From Clostridiales bacterium DTU073 (GTDB lineage Bacteria; Bacillota; Peptococcia; DRI-13; DTU073): a DNA stretch of 53,254 nt. Location: the NCBI GenBank assembly GCA_001512665.1, contig LFSF01000015.1:27951-81204 (forward strand), in the 5' to 3' direction. A model generated the notes under the pieces. It saw only the letters and a list, made by a program, of their open reading frames with translations, searched no databases and had not been told where the DNA came from. Positions 11,277 through 32,228 of the stretch are shown in pieces. Made by a program: the position numbers and the translations under genes. Numbering within the stretch: the stretch's first letter is position 1; every line of letters starts with the position of its first letter.

Positions 11277-11702
11277 ATGGGTAGAGTGAAAAGTTTTATG
11301 CAGTTTAGTAAGAATGACCAAAGTGATATTATGCGGAATGGAAGAACGATAGAAGAATTATTAAGACGTGAATTAATCATTTATGCTAAATCAGCTTTAG
11401 ATAATGTGGATAGATTTATAGAAATCGCGAGAGAAGAATATAGTAATAGAAATTTTAGAGAATTAAAAGGGAAATATCTAGAAACATTAGAAGTAAGGGC
11501 AAAAAAACTAAGATCAATGGCAGAAATTTTAAGTGAAGTAGTAGTAGAATTAGAAAATTATGTGAACAAATTAGGTGAAAGTAGAGGTCTGGTGGATAGT
11601 TTTAAGAAGGTGTTTAGTGGAATTAATATATTTAATGATGAATTGAAAGCAAAAATTAAGAGAGAACCAGCTCATATTAAAACAAACTTATCATTAAGAT
11701 GA
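11277..11702 (+). CDS. Uncharacterised coiled-coil protein, copy A of tandem duplicate
   Basis: SD GGGAGGAG before ATG; similar to the ORF immediately downstream (…IEELLRRELI…A…NVDRFI…EEYSNRNF…). Confidence 0.65.
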   Translation: MGRVKSFMQFSKNDQSDIMRNGRTIEELLRRELIIYAKSALDNVDRFIEIAREEYSNRNFRELKGKYLETLEVRAKKLRSMAEILSEVVVELENYVNKLGESRGLVDSFKKVFSGINIFNDELKAKIKREPAHIKTNLSLR

Positions 11703-11784
11703 ATCTGAGGGGCAGCTTAGTAAGATTGACCTAAGTGATATTATCATAAAAGGAAGAAAGATAGAAGAACTATTAAAAAATGAA

Positions 11785-12141
11785 TTGCTAATTGATGCAG
11801 AATTAGCTTTAAAAAATGTGAACCGACTTATAATAGCAAAAGAAGAACATAGTAATAGCAATAGAAATTTTAAAAAAGTAAAAAGAGAATATATTGAGGA
11901 ATTAGAAAAACATGTACAAAAATTTAAAACTACGGTAGAATTGTTTAGAGAAACAGTAATAGAATTGGAAAATGAACTAAGTATATTAGGAAAAAATAAA
12001 GATAATGAAAGAGGAGATTTAAATAAGCGGAAAAATTTACAAGTTATTTATGATGGAATAAAGGGAATGAGACCGAATAGTCAGGAAATATCTGTAACAA
12101 ATGCGAGAGGGCTTTTTGCACCAAATAGGGACGTGCACTGA
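11785..12141 (+). CDS. Uncharacterised coiled-coil protein, copy B of tandem duplicate (5' end frameshifted or alternative start)
   Basis: Similarity to copy A extends upstream of the TTG start into 11701-11784 (ESEGQLSKIDLSDIIIKGRKIEELLKNEL), where there is no in-frame ATG. Confidence 0.5.
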   Translation: MLIDAELALKNVNRLIIAKEEHSNSNRNFKKVKREYIEELEKHVQKFKTTVELFRETVIELENELSILGKNKDNERGDLNKRKNLQVIYDGIKGMRPNSQEISVTNARGLFAPNRDVH

Positions 12142-12308: not shown

Positions 12309-13622
12309 TTGGACCCTGATAGTAGTCCTTATTTAATTCATGTGTTGTTTTTTGTTCTGCTTTCTTTCTTTTGTGTAACTTGTGAAAAGGCATTATGTAC
12401 ACTTAGCAAAAGGATAATACCCAAGGTAAATAGTGAAGAAGCGGGTAGTGAAGGTAATTCTAGTATTGCTTTGGTGAAGAAAGTATTAGAGGATCCTTCT
12501 GATGTATTTATTACACTTTTCTTTGTCAATTTAGTTAGTTGTATAGTCGCTGCCGGTTTAGGTATAGTAACAGCTCTAAAATATTGGGGTGAAGGCTGGG
12601 GATTTTTAGGTGCGGTAGCCGTTTTTATTGTTGTATTTATGCTGATTGGGGAAATTATTCCCGAGGTATTAGGGAAAAAATATGCTCAGGAAATTAGCTG
12701 TTTGTTTATTAGAATCATAGTGCTGTTTAAGTATTTGTGCTATCCTTTGACGAAACCATTTACTTTAATAAAGCAGTTTCTTAATAGAATAGTAGGTATA
12801 CCAAAAGATGAAGCAGAGAATGAGTTTACTGAAGAAGCAAAAGAGATCATTAATATGGTAACTTCTGGTTTAGCTGTTACGGGCGAAAACGAGGAAATGA
12901 TTAATCAAGTGGAAAAAACCATATTACATGGGGTTATTGAGTTTGCTGATATGGTAGTCAATGATGTTATGACACCTCGTCCGGATATTATTGCGGTAGA
13001 GAAAAATATTTCTTTTGATGATTTAATTACCATAATTAAAGAAGAAAAATTTTCTAGAATACCTGTTTATGAAAAGACAGTTGATAATATTATCGGAGTT
13101 GTGCATATTAAAGATTTGATTCTTCTATTGCCCGAACAAAGAGAGAATTTCTTTCTTGAAAAACATGTGCGCCAGACAATTTATATACCTGAAACAAAAA
13201 AAATCTCCGAATTATTTATGGTAATGAAAAAAGAGAAGATTCATATGGCTATTGTTTTGGATGAATACGGTAGTACTGCTGGGATTGTTACGTTAGAAGA
13301 TCTTATTGAAGAAATCATGGGTGACATACAAGACGAACATGACCGGGAGGAACCGTTATTGCGGCATATTGATGAGGATACAGTAGAGGTTAAGGCTAGT
13401 ATGAGGATTGAGGAGCTAAATGAAGATTTGAATCTTAACTTGAGTTGTGAAGAAGCAGATACGCTCGGCGGATTAGTCTTTGCGACTTTAGATCGTATAC
13501 CTGTAGAAGGTGATAAGATAGAAATAGCGGATCTTGAACTTTCTGTTTTGGAAATGGAAGGTCATCGCATTGAAAAGGTACGTTTAAATAAATTGCCAAG
13601 TGTTAAAGAAATAGAGGCTTAA
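12309..13622 (+). CDS. CNNM/CBS-pair/CorC_HlyC domain transporter-like protein (hemolysin-related family)
   Basis: N-terminal TM region (CNNM), CBS pair 'VVNDVMTPRPDIIAVEKNISFDDLI...', 'LDEYGSTAGIVTLEDLIEEIMGDIQDEHD'; TTG start after GAGGAG. Confidence 0.9.
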   Translation: MDPDSSPYLIHVLFFVLLSFFCVTCEKALCTLSKRIIPKVNSEEAGSEGNSSIALVKKVLEDPSDVFITLFFVNLVSCIVAAGLGIVTALKYWGEGWGFLGAVAVFIVVFMLIGEIIPEVLGKKYAQEISCLFIRIIVLFKYLCYPLTKPFTLIKQFLNRIVGIPKDEAENEFTEEAKEIINMVTSGLAVTGENEEMINQVEKTILHGVIEFADMVVNDVMTPRPDIIAVEKNISFDDLITIIKEEKFSRIPVYEKTVDNIIGVVHIKDLILLLPEQRENFFLEKHVRQTIYIPETKKISELFMVMKKEKIHMAIVLDEYGSTAGIVTLEDLIEEIMGDIQDEHDREEPLLRHIDEDTVEVKASMRIEELNEDLNLNLSCEEADTLGGLVFATLDRIPVEGDKIEIADLELSVLEMEGHRIEKVRLNKLPSVKEIEA

Positions 13623-13739: not shown

Positions 13740-13922
13740 TGTGGATTAAAAATCTGTGGATAATGTGAGCAACTTTGTGAATAACTGCTATATGGGGTTT
13801 ACTAATGTGGACAAAAAACTGAGTAAAAAAATTTCCAAATCTGTGGATAATGTGGACATTATAAGAAAAACGCTGTACAATATGTAAAAATCTGTGTATA
13901 AGTTTGTGGATTTTGTGGATAG
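13740..13922. promoter_or_regulatory. Cluster of DnaA-box-like 9-mers, all in one orientation (TTATCCACA on the - strand)
   Basis: TGTGGATTA 13740; TGTGGATAA 13755 (perfect); TGTGAATAA 13776; TGTGGACAA 13806; TGTGGATAA 13842 (perfect); TGTGTATAA 13893; TGTGGATTT 13905; TGTGGATAG 13914; AT-rich DNA follows. Confidence 0.6.
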
Positions 13923-14047
13923 GTAGCACATATGTTCTGGGAAAAATTTTAAAAAAATGTAAAAACATTTGCAATAAATTTCTGAATAGAATATAATATA
14001 CTTAAGATATCTGGAAAAGTAAATAAATATAAAGGGGATTACTTGAA

Positions 14048-14254
14048 ATGTTGAATGGTATATATGAAGCAAATAGAGTAATAAGGAGAGATTTAGCAAT
14101 AAATATTATAAAAAACAGTTCCAGTGAGTTTCTTAATTTACTCATTGAAGATAATGGAGTCTATAAGTTATCTAAGATGTTTAATGTTTATAAAGAAGCA
14201 GAAAATAATTTGATTAGAGTTTTTGAAAGTATAAAAATGGAGATAGATTTATAA
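14048..14254 (+). CDS. Uncharacterised small helical protein
   Basis: ATG preceded by AAAGGGGATTACTTGAA; 68 aa; first ORF after the DnaA-box cluster. Confidence 0.5.
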   Translation: MLNGIYEANRVIRRDLAINIIKNSSSEFLNLLIEDNGVYKLSKMFNVYKEAENNLIRVFESIKMEIDL

Positions 14255-14274
14255 GGGATTCTAAAGAATGGCAA

Positions 14275-14778
14275 ATGTTTCGTAATGAATTATATCTGAG
14301 ATATGATGCAGCCAGAGAAGCTGTAGCTATCATGGAAAAATCAGAGATAACAAGAAATGATGTGATAGCTTATTTAAAAATTTGTCAGTCTTTAGGAGGA
14401 AATATTAATAAAAATCAATCAGAACTTCTGCAAACATTAAAAGCAATAAATTTAACAGAACGGGGCTTAGATAGTCTAATTCATGAGGTAAATGAAGCGG
14501 AAAAATTATCAGTTACAGAGTGGTTAGACAAGATGGGAACTAAAGATTTGAATTCATTAAATAAAAATGATTATGAAGATATGTTGAGTGAGGCGTGGAA
14601 ATTAAGAAAAGATTCTTTTAATCAAATGTTTGATAACAAACAGGAAAAAATTAATGTTGCCGAATTTAGTAATCCTCATAAAGATTGGATTACTAATAGT
14701 GTGAGAGATGAGGTAATGTTTGAGGCAGCTTTGCGGGACAATGTCAATAAGGATGATTTAATGGCGAGAATTATTTAA
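14275..14778 (+). CDS. Uncharacterised helical protein
   Basis: 167-aa ORF in the orphan array; no recognised family. Confidence 0.55.
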   Translation: MFRNELYLRYDAAREAVAIMEKSEITRNDVIAYLKICQSLGGNINKNQSELLQTLKAINLTERGLDSLIHEVNEAEKLSVTEWLDKMGTKDLNSLNKNDYEDMLSEAWKLRKDSFNQMFDNKQEKINVAEFSNPHKDWITNSVRDEVMFEAALRDNVNKDDLMARII

Positions 14779-15008
14779 AGGCGACAGCAGAGAATTATTA
14801 GAAATGAATGAATTATTGAATTTAGAAGATGTTTGCTATAAAGATTTAGATCTTGAAAAAATTAGTAATAATAAAATTAAAAATATAAAACAGAAAAATA
14901 CAAAAAACAGAGATTGGGATGATAAGAGGGGAAGATGACTTCTTTTCCAGAGTGGGCTAGAGTTTAACAAATGTTTATTAACAAATGTTTAAATAAGGAG
15001 GGGTTGTG

Positions 15009-15725
15009 ATGGCACGTTTACCTTGGAGAAGACCGGAAGAAAGAAAGGAAGCTGAAAACAGATTAAAAAATGGGTCTGTTTTTGGTATTGTAAGAAACGG
15101 ATTTATGGAATTGCCCCAAAATAGAGAAGTTGAAGAAGAACGTTATGCTCCACAGAGTGAGTTAATTCTTGAAGGACGACAATCCCGACAATCAGTGGAA
15201 ATAGACAAAGGAGTAAATGGTGGTAGTAGAACGGTTGAAGATTTCTTAGCTGCAGCCAAAGCAAATAAGAATAAAGAACAGCAAGTAAGCATAGTAAATA
15301 CTCCTAATGAAGAAATTGTAATAACATCAAGAGCAAGAACTCCGAGAATGAAAGTACCAGGTTATACGGAAAAGGTAATGCCTGATGGTTCAATAATAAG
15401 CACTAAGGACAAAGGAGTAAATGGTGGTGGTAGAACGGTTGAAGATTTCTTAGCTGCAGCCAAAGCAAATAAAAATAAAGAACAGCAAGTAAGCATAGTA
15501 AATACACCTAATGAAGAAATTGTAATAACATCAAGAACAAGAACTCCGAGAATGAAAGTACCAGGTTATACGGAAAAGGTAATGCCTGATGGTTCAATAA
15601 TAAGTGTTAAGGAACAAAGCATAGCGGGAAGAAAGTTACCAAATGACATTTCTGAACAGTCGAAAGCTCAGGGCGTAAAACCAGTGAGACAGGTAAGAAC
15701 AAATGACGACAGAGAGTTTTGTTAA
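15009..15725 (+). CDS. Uncharacterised protein with near-identical 68-aa tandem repeat; C-terminal -DREFC
   Basis: AAGGAGGGGTTGTG-ATG; repeat DKGVNGG[SG]RTVEDFLAAAKANKNKEQQ...MPDGSIIS.K twice. Confidence 0.7.
   Translation: MARLPWRRPEERKEAENRLKNGSVFGIVRNGFMELPQNREVEEERYAPQSELILEGRQSRQSVEIDKGVNGGSRTVEDFLAAAKANKNKEQQVSIVNTPNEEIVITSRARTPRMKVPGYTEKVMPDGSIISTKDKGVNGGGRTVEDFLAAAKANKNKEQQVSIVNTPNEEIVITSRTRTPRMKVPGYTEKVMPDGSIISVKEQSIAGRKLPNDISEQSKAQGVKPVRQVRTNDDREFC
15204..15611 (+). repeat. Direct tandem repeat, 2 x 204 bp (15204-15407 and 15408-15611)
   Basis: Only a handful of substitutions between the copies by eye; in frame, 68 codons each. Confidence 0.95.
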
Positions 15726-15789
15726 AGGCTTTCTTTCTTATTCTTTAACTATATAGTTAGTTAAAAGAGAAGAGAAAGGGGAGATTAGG

Positions 15790-17235
15790 ATGGCAATTAA
15801 CGAGCATGAAATTGATGAATATGGCGAAATAATAGTACAGGGGGAGAGCGGGCAGCAGGATTTGGAAACAAGTGAGAATAGTGTCGCAGAAAAAGAAGTG
15901 CTGGCTAAGCATAATAGAGGCGAACAGGTTGCCCGACAATTGGAAACCAATCCGCCTCAAAACGAAACAAAAGGTATAATAGGCTGGTATAGGGATTGGC
16001 GAAAAAATAGAATATACAAAAAAATGGATAAAGAAATTCGCAAATTATTCAGGGAGCTTAATAATGAAGGGTTAGAGTATTTGCCTCATATTTATCCTAC
16101 ATCTAAAAGTGATAATGCTAAAGAAATGGCGAGAGAAATGCATGCAATTGAGACAGTACTTGAGAAATATGGAAATAAGTTGTCACCTGAAGAAAGGAGA
16201 TATGCAAGGGAAGCTTTTTATGAACGCGTAATAGCCGCAGCTGTGGTAAGGCATAAAGGAGAAGCATGTGAATTAGGTGAGTTTGCACGTTTTGAAAATG
16301 CAGAGAATATGTTTAGACCTTCTCCGTATCAAAAAATCTTTATTCCTAATTTTAAGAATCATATTGCCGAACTAAAAGCAGAGAATAAATATAAAGAAGC
16401 AAATCCACGAGAAAATAGAGTTTTAGAAATAGAACTAAAATTACTATCGGAAAGAGCATATAATCTTCGTTATAACGAAAAATATAAAGGATATCTTAGA
16501 AAAAGTAAGGATACGGAGAAAAACCGTTATTTCGAAAAGCTTGATAAAGAATGGATAGAGGATGCATTCAATAAGATACAAAATGGTTTAAAGGATGAAT
16601 TTGAACGTGATCCGGAGTTAAAAAAGGAAATTGATAAATTACGCGAAAAGATGGAATATGAGGCTCTAAAGGCTAAATGTAAGAGATTAGGTATAAAGCC
16701 TCCTGAAAAAAATGCGTCTAAGCAGACACCTAAGACGCCAGACAAACCTAAATTTAGGGTAAGTAGAACTAAAGTTGGTAATGAGTTAAGAATTAAAAGA
16801 AAAAACAAACAGGAACCCCCTAAGGTACAGGCAGAGGGACTCAAACCACTTAAAGTATGGGAAAATAATGCTAAAACATTCGCTAAATCAGAGCAACAGA
16901 AAATGATTGATGAGTTTCGTACAAAGTATCCGGAACAATATAACAGAGCTATGGGTAATATAGAAAAAGAGCAAAGAGAAGCAAGGAAAATGGCTGATGA
17001 ATTAAGCACATTGTATCCGGTATATTTTGATAGAGCTATGGCTAAAAATACAGTAGTGGATAATTCACTAATAACTAATGAACAGCAAAATAGACAGATG
17101 ACTTTAGATGAATGGCAGAATAATGTAGATATTATTAAAAAAGAAGAGCATGCGAATACCAGGACTTTATATGCAGGCAAATCTCCATTTGGTGAATCAA
17201 GCAATAAGAGAAAAAGTGCACCAGAACGTTGTTAA
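15790..17235 (+). CDS. Uncharacterised charged helix-rich protein with C-terminal -SAPERC
   Basis: SD AGAAAGGGGAG before ATG; 481 aa; shares the array motif (YLPHIYPTSKSDNAKEMAREMHAIE). Confidence 0.7.
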   Translation: MAINEHEIDEYGEIIVQGESGQQDLETSENSVAEKEVLAKHNRGEQVARQLETNPPQNETKGIIGWYRDWRKNRIYKKMDKEIRKLFRELNNEGLEYLPHIYPTSKSDNAKEMAREMHAIETVLEKYGNKLSPEERRYAREAFYERVIAAAVVRHKGEACELGEFARFENAENMFRPSPYQKIFIPNFKNHIAELKAENKYKEANPRENRVLEIELKLLSERAYNLRYNEKYKGYLRKSKDTEKNRYFEKLDKEWIEDAFNKIQNGLKDEFERDPELKKEIDKLREKMEYEALKAKCKRLGIKPPEKNASKQTPKTPDKPKFRVSRTKVGNELRIKRKNKQEPPKVQAEGLKPLKVWENNAKTFAKSEQQKMIDEFRTKYPEQYNRAMGNIEKEQREARKMADELSTLYPVYFDRAMAKNTVVDNSLITNEQQNRQMTLDEWQNNVDIIKKEEHANTRTLYAGKSPFGESSNKRKSAPERC

Positions 17236-17269
17236 GAGTATAAGAAAGGAGAAGTATTTAATAATATGA

Positions 17270-17989
17270 ATGTTACCAGATTTTTCTTTGCTTGAAAATA
17301 TAAAGTATAGCATAGATATAGATATTAAGGAAACCAGACCTTCTGAATACTATAAAATGTATTTACATCCTTCGTTTAATAAAGAATTATATGAAAAGGA
17401 ATTGCAAGCTATTGAAAAAAATTTTGCTGAACGGGAAAAAGATTTGCAAGAATTTTGCAAGCAAAATCCCGAATTGAAAGAACAAATAAAAAATTTAAAA
17501 GTTGGTTTTAAACAAAGGGCAAAGGATAGGTATGATTTTACAGATTACTGTACTCAAATTATGGATGATAATAGAGCACAAAGAGATGATATACCTGAAC
17601 CTCCTCAAGAAATGATTGAAAGGTTTCTTAAAGAAGAGTATAATCCTTATTTTGCAGAAGGATTCATTAGATTTGAGAGTATGAGGGCTGAACTGGAGAC
17701 AAGGTGGGAAAGTAGATTAGCAAAGTTAGAAAGAAGAAGAAGGAAACAGGAAAATTTAGAAAATAACCCCAGACTTCAATTGCCTGAGAAATTTAAACGG
17801 GATCGAAGTGATCAGAGAAGTATTGATTCTATTTTATCTGAGTATGGATATGGCAATAAAGCAAAAAAAGAAACGGCTGAGCCTGAAAAAACTATTGATG
17901 CTGGAATGTCAGCTAATAAGGATGGACAGATTACACGAAATGGCAATTCTTCTCCGAGAGAAAAAAGTAGTGAGCCTGAACGTTGTTAA
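17270..17989 (+). CDS. Uncharacterised charged helix-rich protein with C-terminal -SSEPERC
   Basis: 239 aa; array motif EYYKMYLHPSFNKELYEKELQAIEKNF. Confidence 0.65.
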   Translation: MLPDFSLLENIKYSIDIDIKETRPSEYYKMYLHPSFNKELYEKELQAIEKNFAEREKDLQEFCKQNPELKEQIKNLKVGFKQRAKDRYDFTDYCTQIMDDNRAQRDDIPEPPQEMIERFLKEEYNPYFAEGFIRFESMRAELETRWESRLAKLERRRRKQENLENNPRLQLPEKFKRDRSDQRSIDSILSEYGYGNKAKKETAEPEKTIDAGMSANKDGQITRNGNSSPREKSSEPERC

Positions 17990-18029
17990 ATTGTAAGAGA
18001 ATGTTTTTAACAGAAAGGAAAGGTTCAAA

Positions 18030-18920
18030 ATGGGATTGACAGGTGGAGTAATAAAATGGTTAATAGACAGGAATCAGTCCAGACTTAAAGAGATGAGCAA
18101 GGATAGTTTGGAGATTGATTTTCAGTTAAGGTATGGATATTTGGAAGGTTTATGCTCGAAAAAACAACTTGAAGGTATCAAGAAGATTTATCAAGAATTG
18201 GAAGAACTAAAAACTAGCCTTGGACAAGTTTATGAAATAACACCTGCTCCTTTAGAGAAAATAGAGAGGAGAAATGAATTAGAGCTTTTTTTCAATGACA
18301 TAGATAGAATTATTAACCAAGGTAAGCTTGATGTAGCAATTATGGCGATTGAGCTGGATACCCAACAAAAAATAAATGAGGCTATAAAGAGGATGGTCAT
18401 GGCACGTGAAGATTTTATTCAAACTTGCCCTGATTATTTAAGTATGAATATCGAGTATGGACAAAATGTATATATCTTAAATGAAGCGAGGAATAAGATT
18501 AACTGTGCATATTATGAAAGCCTGGATATATATAAAAACAGCCCTGATTTCCCTATAATTAATAATAAGCTTAATGAGATAAGAGATAAAATGTTTTTAT
18601 GTGAAAAGCATATGTATAATTATAGAGAAAAAGGCTTTGATTTTTCTGAAGATAAAAAGACTGAATTATATGAACTGGAAGCTGAATTCAGTAATTTCGG
18701 TTCTGAAAGACTAGCTGGTTTAAAAACTATTGATGAAGGATTTCATGAAATTAGAAGAAAAATGGCGGAAGAGGCCTTAAAAAAACGAGAAGAGCAAAGA
18801 GAATTTGATAAATTTGCTGAACGTGTTGATGAAGTATATGAACAAACGAAAGAATTAGCTGAGGCAAGTATTCCGATTAGAAGTTCGCATGTGAGCATAA
18901 ATGAACGGATGTCTCGGTAA
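18030..18920 (+). CDS. Uncharacterised coiled-coil protein
   Basis: SD GAAAGGAAAGG before ATG; 296 aa; N-terminal GVIKWLIDRNQSRLKEM similar in layout to neighbours. Confidence 0.65.
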   Translation: MGLTGGVIKWLIDRNQSRLKEMSKDSLEIDFQLRYGYLEGLCSKKQLEGIKKIYQELEELKTSLGQVYEITPAPLEKIERRNELELFFNDIDRIINQGKLDVAIMAIELDTQQKINEAIKRMVMAREDFIQTCPDYLSMNIEYGQNVYILNEARNKINCAYYESLDIYKNSPDFPIINNKLNEIRDKMFLCEKHMYNYREKGFDFSEDKKTELYELEAEFSNFGSERLAGLKTIDEGFHEIRRKMAEEALKKREEQREFDKFAERVDEVYEQTKELAEASIPIRSSHVSINERMSR

Positions 18921-19470
18921 TAATTGTATCAACCGGTATATCGAACTTTGTTCGAGGTAGACAATCGAGAATCTGAAAATCGTAAGCTAAGGCTATTTTA
19001 AGACAATCTGTACGGAGTTTTGGGAGAAAACGATCAAAATAGCCACCACCATAACCAAGTCTGTAACCTTGGCGGTCAAAGGCGACACCGGGAAGAATAC
19101 AGATATCCACGTTGTCCGGATTAACCGGACGTAAGTATTCTGGTTTTGGTGTAAGAATATTATATATTCCTCGGGTTAACTCATTAAGATTTTTCAGTCT
19201 CGACGGAATTAAGCTATTATTTTCTGCTTGAGTTACGGGAATTAATACTTGTTTTTTTTGTTCCCAAGCATTATTAATCAATGGTAGTGTGTCTGGTTCA
19301 TTTTTTATGGGAAGGTATGTGAGGATAGTTTTAGCCGTTTGATAAGCAGAAAAAAAGATAAGCTGTTGATTTATTTGATGGCTTTTCCCTTGTACTTCTA
19401 ATAAGGAAAGCATTTCTCTCTTTTCCAGCATATATTTGCGTAATTCTTGTTTGTTCAATTTATTTACCAC
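18877..19470 (-). CDS. 5-formyltetrahydrofolate cyclo-ligase
   Basis: 'ILTYLPIKNEPDTLPLI', 'ICILPGVAFDRQGYRLGYGGGYFDRFL' is the family signature; - strand. Confidence 0.93.
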   Translation of the reverse strand: MVNKLNKQELRKYMLEKREMLSLLEVQGKSHQINQQLIFFSAYQTAKTILTYLPIKNEPDTLPLINNAWEQKKQVLIPVTQAENNSLIPSRLKNLNELTRGIYNILTPKPEYLRPVNPDNVDICILPGVAFDRQGYRLGYGGGYFDRFLPKLRTDCLKIALAYDFQILDCLPRTKFDIPVDTIITETSVHLCSHANF

Positions 19471-19614
19471 CTACACTTAGATATTTTTGACATATTAATA
19501 TTGAAGATATTATAACATGGATTTAAAAGATGGAATGATTCAGAAGCAAATTTAAAGATAAATTTACAAAAATGAAATTTAGAGCTTGATAAATTTGAAA
19601 AGGAGGTTGATACT

Positions 19615-20178
19615 ATTATTAGTTTTATAAAAAAACTAGGAGAATATTTAAGAAAAAGACGCGCAGAAAAAATTGAAAACATGTTAAGAAATCTGATGCA
19701 AGACATTAAAGAAAGCTCTCGTTTTCCGGAATATTACAAGACAGATAATAGTCCAGAAATAAATGATAAAATATATAAGCAAGAAATTTATATTATTGAA
19801 AATATGATAAGCAAATATAAACATGATATAGTTAGCTATCTGGATATTAATCAAATTAAAAAACTTAATAAGCTCTTATATGAGCGAGCAGCTCTTTGGC
19901 ATCAGTTTAGAAATGAAGGTTTGAATATGCCTAAAGAAAAATTTGAGAGATTAATAATCTTAGAAGAAAATTTATACGGCGGAGAAGTTGATAAGATTTG
20001 GGGAATGGTAGAAGAATTGAAAAGAAAAGAAAACAAGCACGTATACTTAAGTCCTCAAAATTCAACAGGCGATACATTAAAGAAAACAGAAGATATACTG
20101 ATGACATATTCAGATAACCATAGAATACAGGTTGAACCTAGGAATAGACATAGACAAGAATTAGAATTAATGCGTTAA
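19615..20178 (+). CDS. Uncharacterised helical protein (probable ATT start at 19615; ATG alternative at 19681)
   Basis: AGGAGG 19601-19606, 8-nt spacer, in-frame ATT then ISFIKKLGEYLRKRRAEKIEN upstream of the ATG; array motif EYYKTDNSPEINDKIYKQEIYIIEN. Confidence 0.55.
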   Translation: MISFIKKLGEYLRKRRAEKIENMLRNLMQDIKESSRFPEYYKTDNSPEINDKIYKQEIYIIENMISKYKHDIVSYLDINQIKKLNKLLYERAALWHQFRNEGLNMPKEKFERLIILEENLYGGEVDKIWGMVEELKRKENKHVYLSPQNSTGDTLKKTEDILMTYSDNHRIQVEPRNRHRQELELMR

Positions 20179-20204
20179 TTTTTATTTTATAAAAATAGGG
20201 GTGT

Positions 20205-20909
20205 GTGATCCTAATGAGTTATTCAGATGATATTACGAGACGTAAGTTAAATCATCGTTTAAATGACTTGAATATGACTGAATTGAAAATGTCTAGGCAA
20301 AATCTTGCAGATTCTTTAAATGATATCATTAGAAAGATTAATAATTTTCAACAAGAGCATAGTGCAATATATTATCAATTGCGTTTTAATTATTCTTATA
20401 TCAATAAAGATTTGTATAAAGAAGAAATAGAGTTAATAAATTATGAATTTGCCGAATTAGAAAAGAAGTTTGCCAATGTCTTAAACGAAGATCCAAAATT
20501 AAAGGAAGATATTATGCTGATTAAGAAGGATCTGTTAGAAAAGGTAAAACTGTGGGGTAGGGCCAGAACTGAAGTTGAAAAGGATTTGATTGAAAGAAGA
20601 CGTGCTGCATTTTGGAAAAAAACAGATAAAATAAAACAGCTATTTACAGAAGCAGATTTCAACCGACTAAGAGAACTTGAAGAGATGTATGGCAATGAAA
20701 AAGGGATAGAATGCTTGCAGAATATTAAAAATATGATGTCAGTTGAGAATCCTTCATTTAATCCGGAACAGGTTAATAATGATCATAAACTATCTGCACA
20801 TAGTATCTTAGATAGATTTAATGAATTAATAAAACGAAAGGGTAGTTGGCGACTAAATGACAGAGGATTTATGGGAAGTAAGGAGGTTAATAGAAGGGAA
20901 CGGGTGTAA
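20205..20909 (+). CDS. Uncharacterised helical protein
   Basis: 234 aa; array motif IYYQLRFNYSYINKDLYKEEIELINYEF. Confidence 0.65.
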   Translation: MILMSYSDDITRRKLNHRLNDLNMTELKMSRQNLADSLNDIIRKINNFQQEHSAIYYQLRFNYSYINKDLYKEEIELINYEFAELEKKFANVLNEDPKLKEDIMLIKKDLLEKVKLWGRARTEVEKDLIERRRAAFWKKTDKIKQLFTEADFNRLRELEEMYGNEKGIECLQNIKNMMSVENPSFNPEQVNNDHKLSAHSILDRFNELIKRKGSWRLNDRGFMGSKEVNRRERV

Positions 20910-20925
20910 ACCTGTTCCTTTTTTA
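20896..20925 (+). terminator. Intrinsic terminator overlapping the last codons of the preceding ORF
   Basis: GGGAACGGGTGTAAACCTGTTCC + TTTTTT; the TAA stop lies in the loop. Confidence 0.7.
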
Positions 20926-21177: not shown

Positions 21178-21204
21178 TTAGCACTCAACGAAGTAGAGTG
21201 CTAA
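21178..21204. promoter_or_regulatory. CIRCE element (HrcA operator)
   Basis: TTAGCACTC-N9-GAGTGCTAA exact consensus upstream of groES. Confidence 0.98.
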
Positions 21205-32107: not shown

Positions 32108-32195
32108 TGGTATGGGGACGTTTCATCTGCCACATTAGTATGCCATCCAAATTTTACCTGGTTGCTAATGTGGCAGATGAAACGTCCCCATGCCA
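32108..32195. repeat. Long palindromic REP/MITE-like element
   Basis: ATGGGGACGTTTCATCTGCCACATTA (32112-32137) and exact reverse complement at 32166-32191; extends with one mismatch to 32108/32195. Confidence 0.85.
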
Positions 32196-32228
32196 TATGT
32201 CGTCCCCGTGCCACATGTTGAAAAGCTG

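Follow-up and report, generated by a model that had tools for sequence, protein, structure and literature searches.

The array and its neighbours

The window, a 53,254 nt stretch of contig LFSF01000015.1 of Clostridiales bacterium DTU073, contains an array of ORFs on the + strand, designated O1 to O8, between a CBS/CNNM-domain gene (12309-13622) and groES, which flank the array on opposite sides. The first three ORFs are short: O1 (14048..14254) encodes 68 aa, O2 (14275..14778) encodes 167 aa and ends in ARII, and the small ORF O2b (14804..14938) encodes 44 aa and ends in KRGR. They are followed by O3 (15009..15725; C-terminal end DREFC), O4 (15790..17235; 481 aa, ending in PERC), O5 (17270..17989; 239 aa, also ending in PERC), O6 (18030..18920; 296 aa, ending in ERMSR), O7 (19618..20178; 186 aa, ending in ELMR) and O8 (20205..20909; about 230 aa, starting at either GTG 20205 or ATG 20214, and ending in RRERV). 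The start codon of O7 is probably the ATT at 19618, which follows an AAGGAGG Shine-Dalgarno sequence and makes the gene longer than its ATG-start ORF. None of the array proteins carries a signal peptide. Within O3, a 204-bp in-frame tandem duplication, 97% identical, spans 15204..15611 (+ strand).

The ORFs named in the first-pass annotation were recovered by an ORF check. Its description of eight consecutive ORFs did not hold, as a 5-formyltetrahydrofolate (5-FTHF) cyclo-ligase gene on the reverse strand (18877..19470; PF01812, E 1e-48) separates O6 from O7 and breaks up the array. The cyclo-ligase gene lies outside the system, and array-less relatives have a cyclo-ligase gene at the same site.

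A sigma-A-like promoter (TTGCAA-N17-TATAAT, 13969..13997, + strand) precedes O1, though in this AT-rich region matches of this kind are no more frequent than chance would give. At the other end, the last part of O8 overlaps with an intrinsic terminator (20892..20923, + strand; -19.2 kcal/mol, z -4.8, followed by a T run), and an exact CIRCE element (21178-21204) belongs to groES itself. The array is therefore probably outside the groESL transcript. Together, the terminator and the CIRCE element disfavour one common transcript as a functional link to groESL, and the case for a stress (heat-shock) role of the array via groESL is weakened.

A domain shared by five array proteins

Profile comparisons indicate that O4, O5, O6, O7 and O8 have a genuine domain of ~88 residues in common, with the pattern YY...N...E...I followed by ERA.LWHEFR..G..FP.EK..RL..LE..YG. 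Pairwise shuffles gave P values of 4e-5 (O5-O7), 1e-4 (O5-O8) and 6e-4 (O4-O5). A profile built from the first five copies found more copies on other contigs of the same genome and in related genomes; iterated over the loci retrieved up to that point, it yielded 24 copies, and no E-value fell between 7e-8 and 0.8. Single sequences also matched across genomes, O7 to a groES-locus protein of genome G006 (1.6e-16) and O6 to a groES-locus protein of G002 (E about 9e-16).

In a leave-out test, the profile was built without any sequence from the window genome and run against 2200 decoys, the best of which scored 10 bits. This profile detected the block in O5 (about 17345-17653; 3.5e-12), O6 (about 18432-18689; 1.3e-9), O7 (about 19729-19980; 1.7e-18) and O8 (about 20370-20693; 3e-8). 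The aligned block that the first-pass annotation had seen in O5, O7 and O8 was thus borne out (E 3e-8 to 1.7e-18), but its list of carriers was incomplete, as O6 had been missed. For O4, a copy was supported at a place other than the one annotated: the leave-out profile matched residues 235-307 (16492..16710, + strand; E 1e-4 to 1e-5), whereas the faint copy originally proposed, at residues about 105-174 (16102..16311, + strand), scored 9.9 bits, the level of the decoys. The late LEE.YG.E block is present as well; it forms the last part of this domain and is not a block of its own.

O1, O2, O2b and O3 were without the block, as was a pair of genes, A and B (11277-12141), upstream of the CBS gene. 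O3 shows weak similarity (E 9e-4) to an array protein adjoining the CBS gene in G002. The proposal that the family is expanded and undescribed was upheld, since other parts of the genome and four related genomes hold further copies.

Genomic distribution and selection

The block was present in five of the seven genomes of the window's GTDB-level family (the window genome G000, G002, G003, G005 and G006), and absent from G001 and G004 of the same family. Among 399 genomes sampled from the phylum, none outside that family contained it. Absence from two genomes of the same GTDB-level family implies that the protein family is dispensable. The host family is represented here by metagenome-type Clostridia assemblies (MAGs) only.

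Two syntenic loci recur, one between the CBS gene and groES and the other between gatB and lpd, alongside solo sites. At the groES locus, array genes occur in G000, G002, G005 and G006 (split over contigs in G002 and G006); the same locus in G001, G003 and G004 holds a RidA-like gene, recognized by eye, and the cyclo-ligase gene instead of an array. At the gatB-lpd locus, array genes are found in G000 (at the ends of contigs C36 and C31), G002 and G006, and the further block copies of the window genome lie on contigs C48, C50, C36 and C31. The same arrays were found in several genera. Solo copies lie close to other housekeeping genes, and for one of them an empty site was identified, the MBL-fold gene and rlmH that flank it in G000 being direct neighbours in G002. 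At one contig edge of G002 (L113:1-840), two array genes are apparently fused in-frame, a block end being followed by an MGL start. Searches of viral contigs, phages and plasmids revealed no convincing relatives of the block proteins.

Three orthologue pairs gave dN/dS values of 0.27-0.41, and dS was saturated in two other pairs. For the groES-locus pair of G006 and G002, dN was about 0.37, whereas the cyclo-ligase in these genomes gave 0.18. These estimates point to array genes that are under purifying selection yet evolving fast. We conclude that the array represents a previously undescribed, fast-changing helical family, accompanied by small companion proteins and clustered at a few fixed genome sites in uncultured anaerobic Clostridia. 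Like other lineage-specific expanded ORFan families, it is restricted to one family of hosts, fast-evolving and clustered; it differs from them in a feature of the C-terminus that extends to neighbours without the block.

Arginine at the C-terminus

That feature is a terminal arginine, an excess of which was first spotted by eye and counted afterwards. Arginine was the last residue in 14 of 30 array or block proteins and in 13 of 169 background proteins (Fisher P 9e-7), and it fell within the last three residues in 25/30 and 32/169, respectively (Fisher P 1e-11); the set of 30 leaves out O1, O2, O2b, A and B, and kinship among the proteins makes these P values too small. The arginine end reaches array proteins without the block; O3 is one example, and small proteins in G005 and G006 are others. 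All seven non-orthologous proteins fetched after the idea had been formed had arginine in the last two positions. Lysine, by comparison, ended none of 44 array or block proteins and 14 of 169 in the background.

The terminal arginine codons are mixed, which makes the arginine a protein-level feature. The flanking DNA differs too, and a cause at the nucleotide level was rejected on these two grounds, except for O8, the last codons of which overlap the terminator stem.

One of the seven later-fetched proteins belongs to the gatB-lpd array of G006, where a nucleotidyltransferase gene and a HEPN gene, both matching their families, form a pair (L140:1163-2090). HEPN covers residues 7-124 of the 200-residue protein, leaving a 76-residue extra tail that ends in WDTR. 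In the G002 counterpart, the nucleotidyltransferase is present and the HEPN gene absent.

The tails may also have a motif in common. The pattern [ST][LVI]x[DEQK][FYW], picked after the fact, occurred in 8/44 proteins and 5/169 of the background, with 14 matches compared with 3.8 in shuffles; a de novo motif search did not return it, and we regard it as no more than suggestive. A literature search on C-terminal arginine targeting yielded nothing relevant.

Predicted fold and comparison with known families

The block proteins had no match over the curated cut-off, or no convincing E-value in cases without a cut-off, in Pfam, NCBIfam, PHROGs and PADLOC, in agreement with the original impression that they belong to no recognized family. 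Against PDB sequences, the profile matched mainly designed helical bundles.

Structure models were obtained for two proteins. The O7 model, from a 10-sequence alignment, is all helical (mean pLDDT 78.5, pTM 0.66), with pLDDT mostly 87-95 over residues 41-120 and low confidence over residues 145-178. The model of a G006 protein has its helices in the same order as O7; then comes a long helix, and from residue 229 on the confidence of the tail is low. The predicted fold is accordingly a bundle made up entirely of helices, from which a disordered C-terminal tail extends. Fold searches with these two models gave no match at E<=0.001 in the PDB or among viral folds. Even without a sorting signal, the block is a new domain family, the predicted fold of which is not closely like anything solved.

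Several members begin MGL(L/F)xxIKxxx, reminiscent of the N-terminal membrane helices of PspA/Vipp1, SepF and FtsY. The basic amphipathic N-terminal helix described in the first-pass annotation is indeed basic in several members, but its hydrophobic moment is ordinary within these proteins. We therefore rejected a membrane-binding helix; the match to Vipp1 reached only E 1.1, with an rmsd of 40.

Possible functions

No catalytic residue pattern was evident, so the proteins are probably binders rather than enzymes. We tentatively favour a model, to which we would give somewhat less than an even chance, in which helical proteins are docked by their arginine-ended tails to a common putative partner. 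This one partner would read the tail as a signal for docking or sorting; bundles with different surfaces would thereby be brought to one structure or route, and there they may act by binding, as scaffold, adaptor or cargo. Short signals at the C-terminal end of flexible tails are familiar from PTS1 and encapsulin cargo peptides, where they are borne by unrelated proteins. These and other C-terminal sorting tags offer a functional analogy, from which the array tails differ in being arginine-specific; no bacterial microcompartment (BMC) shell protein, as would accompany microcompartment cargo, was found in any of the seven genomes. Were the tail a sorting signal, it would amount to an undescribed protein-addressing rule, with the variable bundles as its cargo or building blocks.

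An extended form of the docking model would posit an arginine-specific C-terminal sorting code, in which a putative receptor recognizes disordered, arginine-ended tails and collects, or exports, a growing and polymorphic repertoire of helical domains and others (such as HEPN). We consider this extended form unlikely. For the docking model in general, searches for candidate machines (WXG100, BMC, sheath and VirD4) were negative or non-discriminating.

An alternative account, which we would give a limited chance, develops the filament or scaffold proposed in the first-pass annotation. Here the proteins would form a cytosolic helical scaffold or filament, and the terminal arginine would do no more than protect the disordered tails against proteases with a grip on non-polar C-termini. 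The long helices and disordered tails of the predicted bundles are compatible with this account. Lysine should protect equally well, however, yet it is terminal in none of the 44 proteins, and in fold searches neither model significantly resembled any known filament protein.

It is also possible, but rather doubtful, that the proteins are exported effectors, the arginine tail being the signal for an unrecognized secretion route and the fast-evolving bundles acting on neighbouring cells. Polymorphic effector systems combine a conserved sorting part with a variable body, and the array proteins resemble them in having variable bodies and a common end. The similar kind of tail on polymorphic bodies, the fast divergence and the arginine-ended tail of one HEPN protein all fit. 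In contrast to such systems, no secretion system or immunity partner was found here. WXG100 proteins, sought as evidence of type VII secretion (WXG100/LXG substrates), were absent above the Pfam cut-off from all seven genomes, with one sub-cut-off match in G003; a contractile injection sheath protein was absent from the window genome and, among the seven, present only in G003. A VirD4-like coupling ATPase, indicative of type IV secretion, was matched in six of the seven genomes, including the two without the family, and was not found in family-bearing G006, and so appears not to track the family. The block proteins themselves contain no toxin domain, and no immunity pairs were seen.

Lineage-specific coat proteins are common, and the array products, which resemble many of these in being soluble, charged and helical and in evolving fast, could be spore-coat or forespore structural proteins, a reading to which we assign a small probability. 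SpoIVA was found in all nine genomes examined, from which the hosts probably form spores; its presence extends to G001 and G004, both lacking the family, and is therefore non-discriminating. The sigma-A-like promoter ahead of O1 would also speak against this reading, were such matches not at chance level.

Finally, presence or absence at fixed sites (for example MBL-fold gene-rlmH in G000 and G002) and low G+C might suggest that the genes are decaying or selfish insertions that lie dispersed between housekeeping genes and serve no cellular function, but the intact ORFs, the dN/dS range given above, the recurrence of the same arrays across several genera and the lack of visible mobility genes adjoining the copies make this very improbable.

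Other features of the region

A cluster of DnaA boxes lies at 13740-13922, between the CBS gene and O1, with spacings of about 21, 52, 35 and 30 bp. The first-pass annotation had drawn attention to its position next to the array, but the proximity is coincidental: a cluster with similar spacing occurs in most of the groES-region loci examined in the order, array-less ones included. In B. subtilis, a DnaA-binding region lies downstream of gcp (tsaD) and ydiF (PMC4447404), and the cluster of the window is its positional counterpart, likewise close downstream of tsaD. The cluster is a separate feature of an older, known kind, independent of the array beside it.

The A/B genes form a tandem paralogue pair between tsaD and the CBS gene, with a dS of 0.46 and an omega of 0.64; a good start codon is missing from B, the end of which is similar to a GGGACG repeat. 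REP-like intergenic repeats of the GGGGACGTTTC / TGCCAC type recur at L132:330-506, L134:1463-1500 and L074:5050-5100, and at 32183-32218 of the window.
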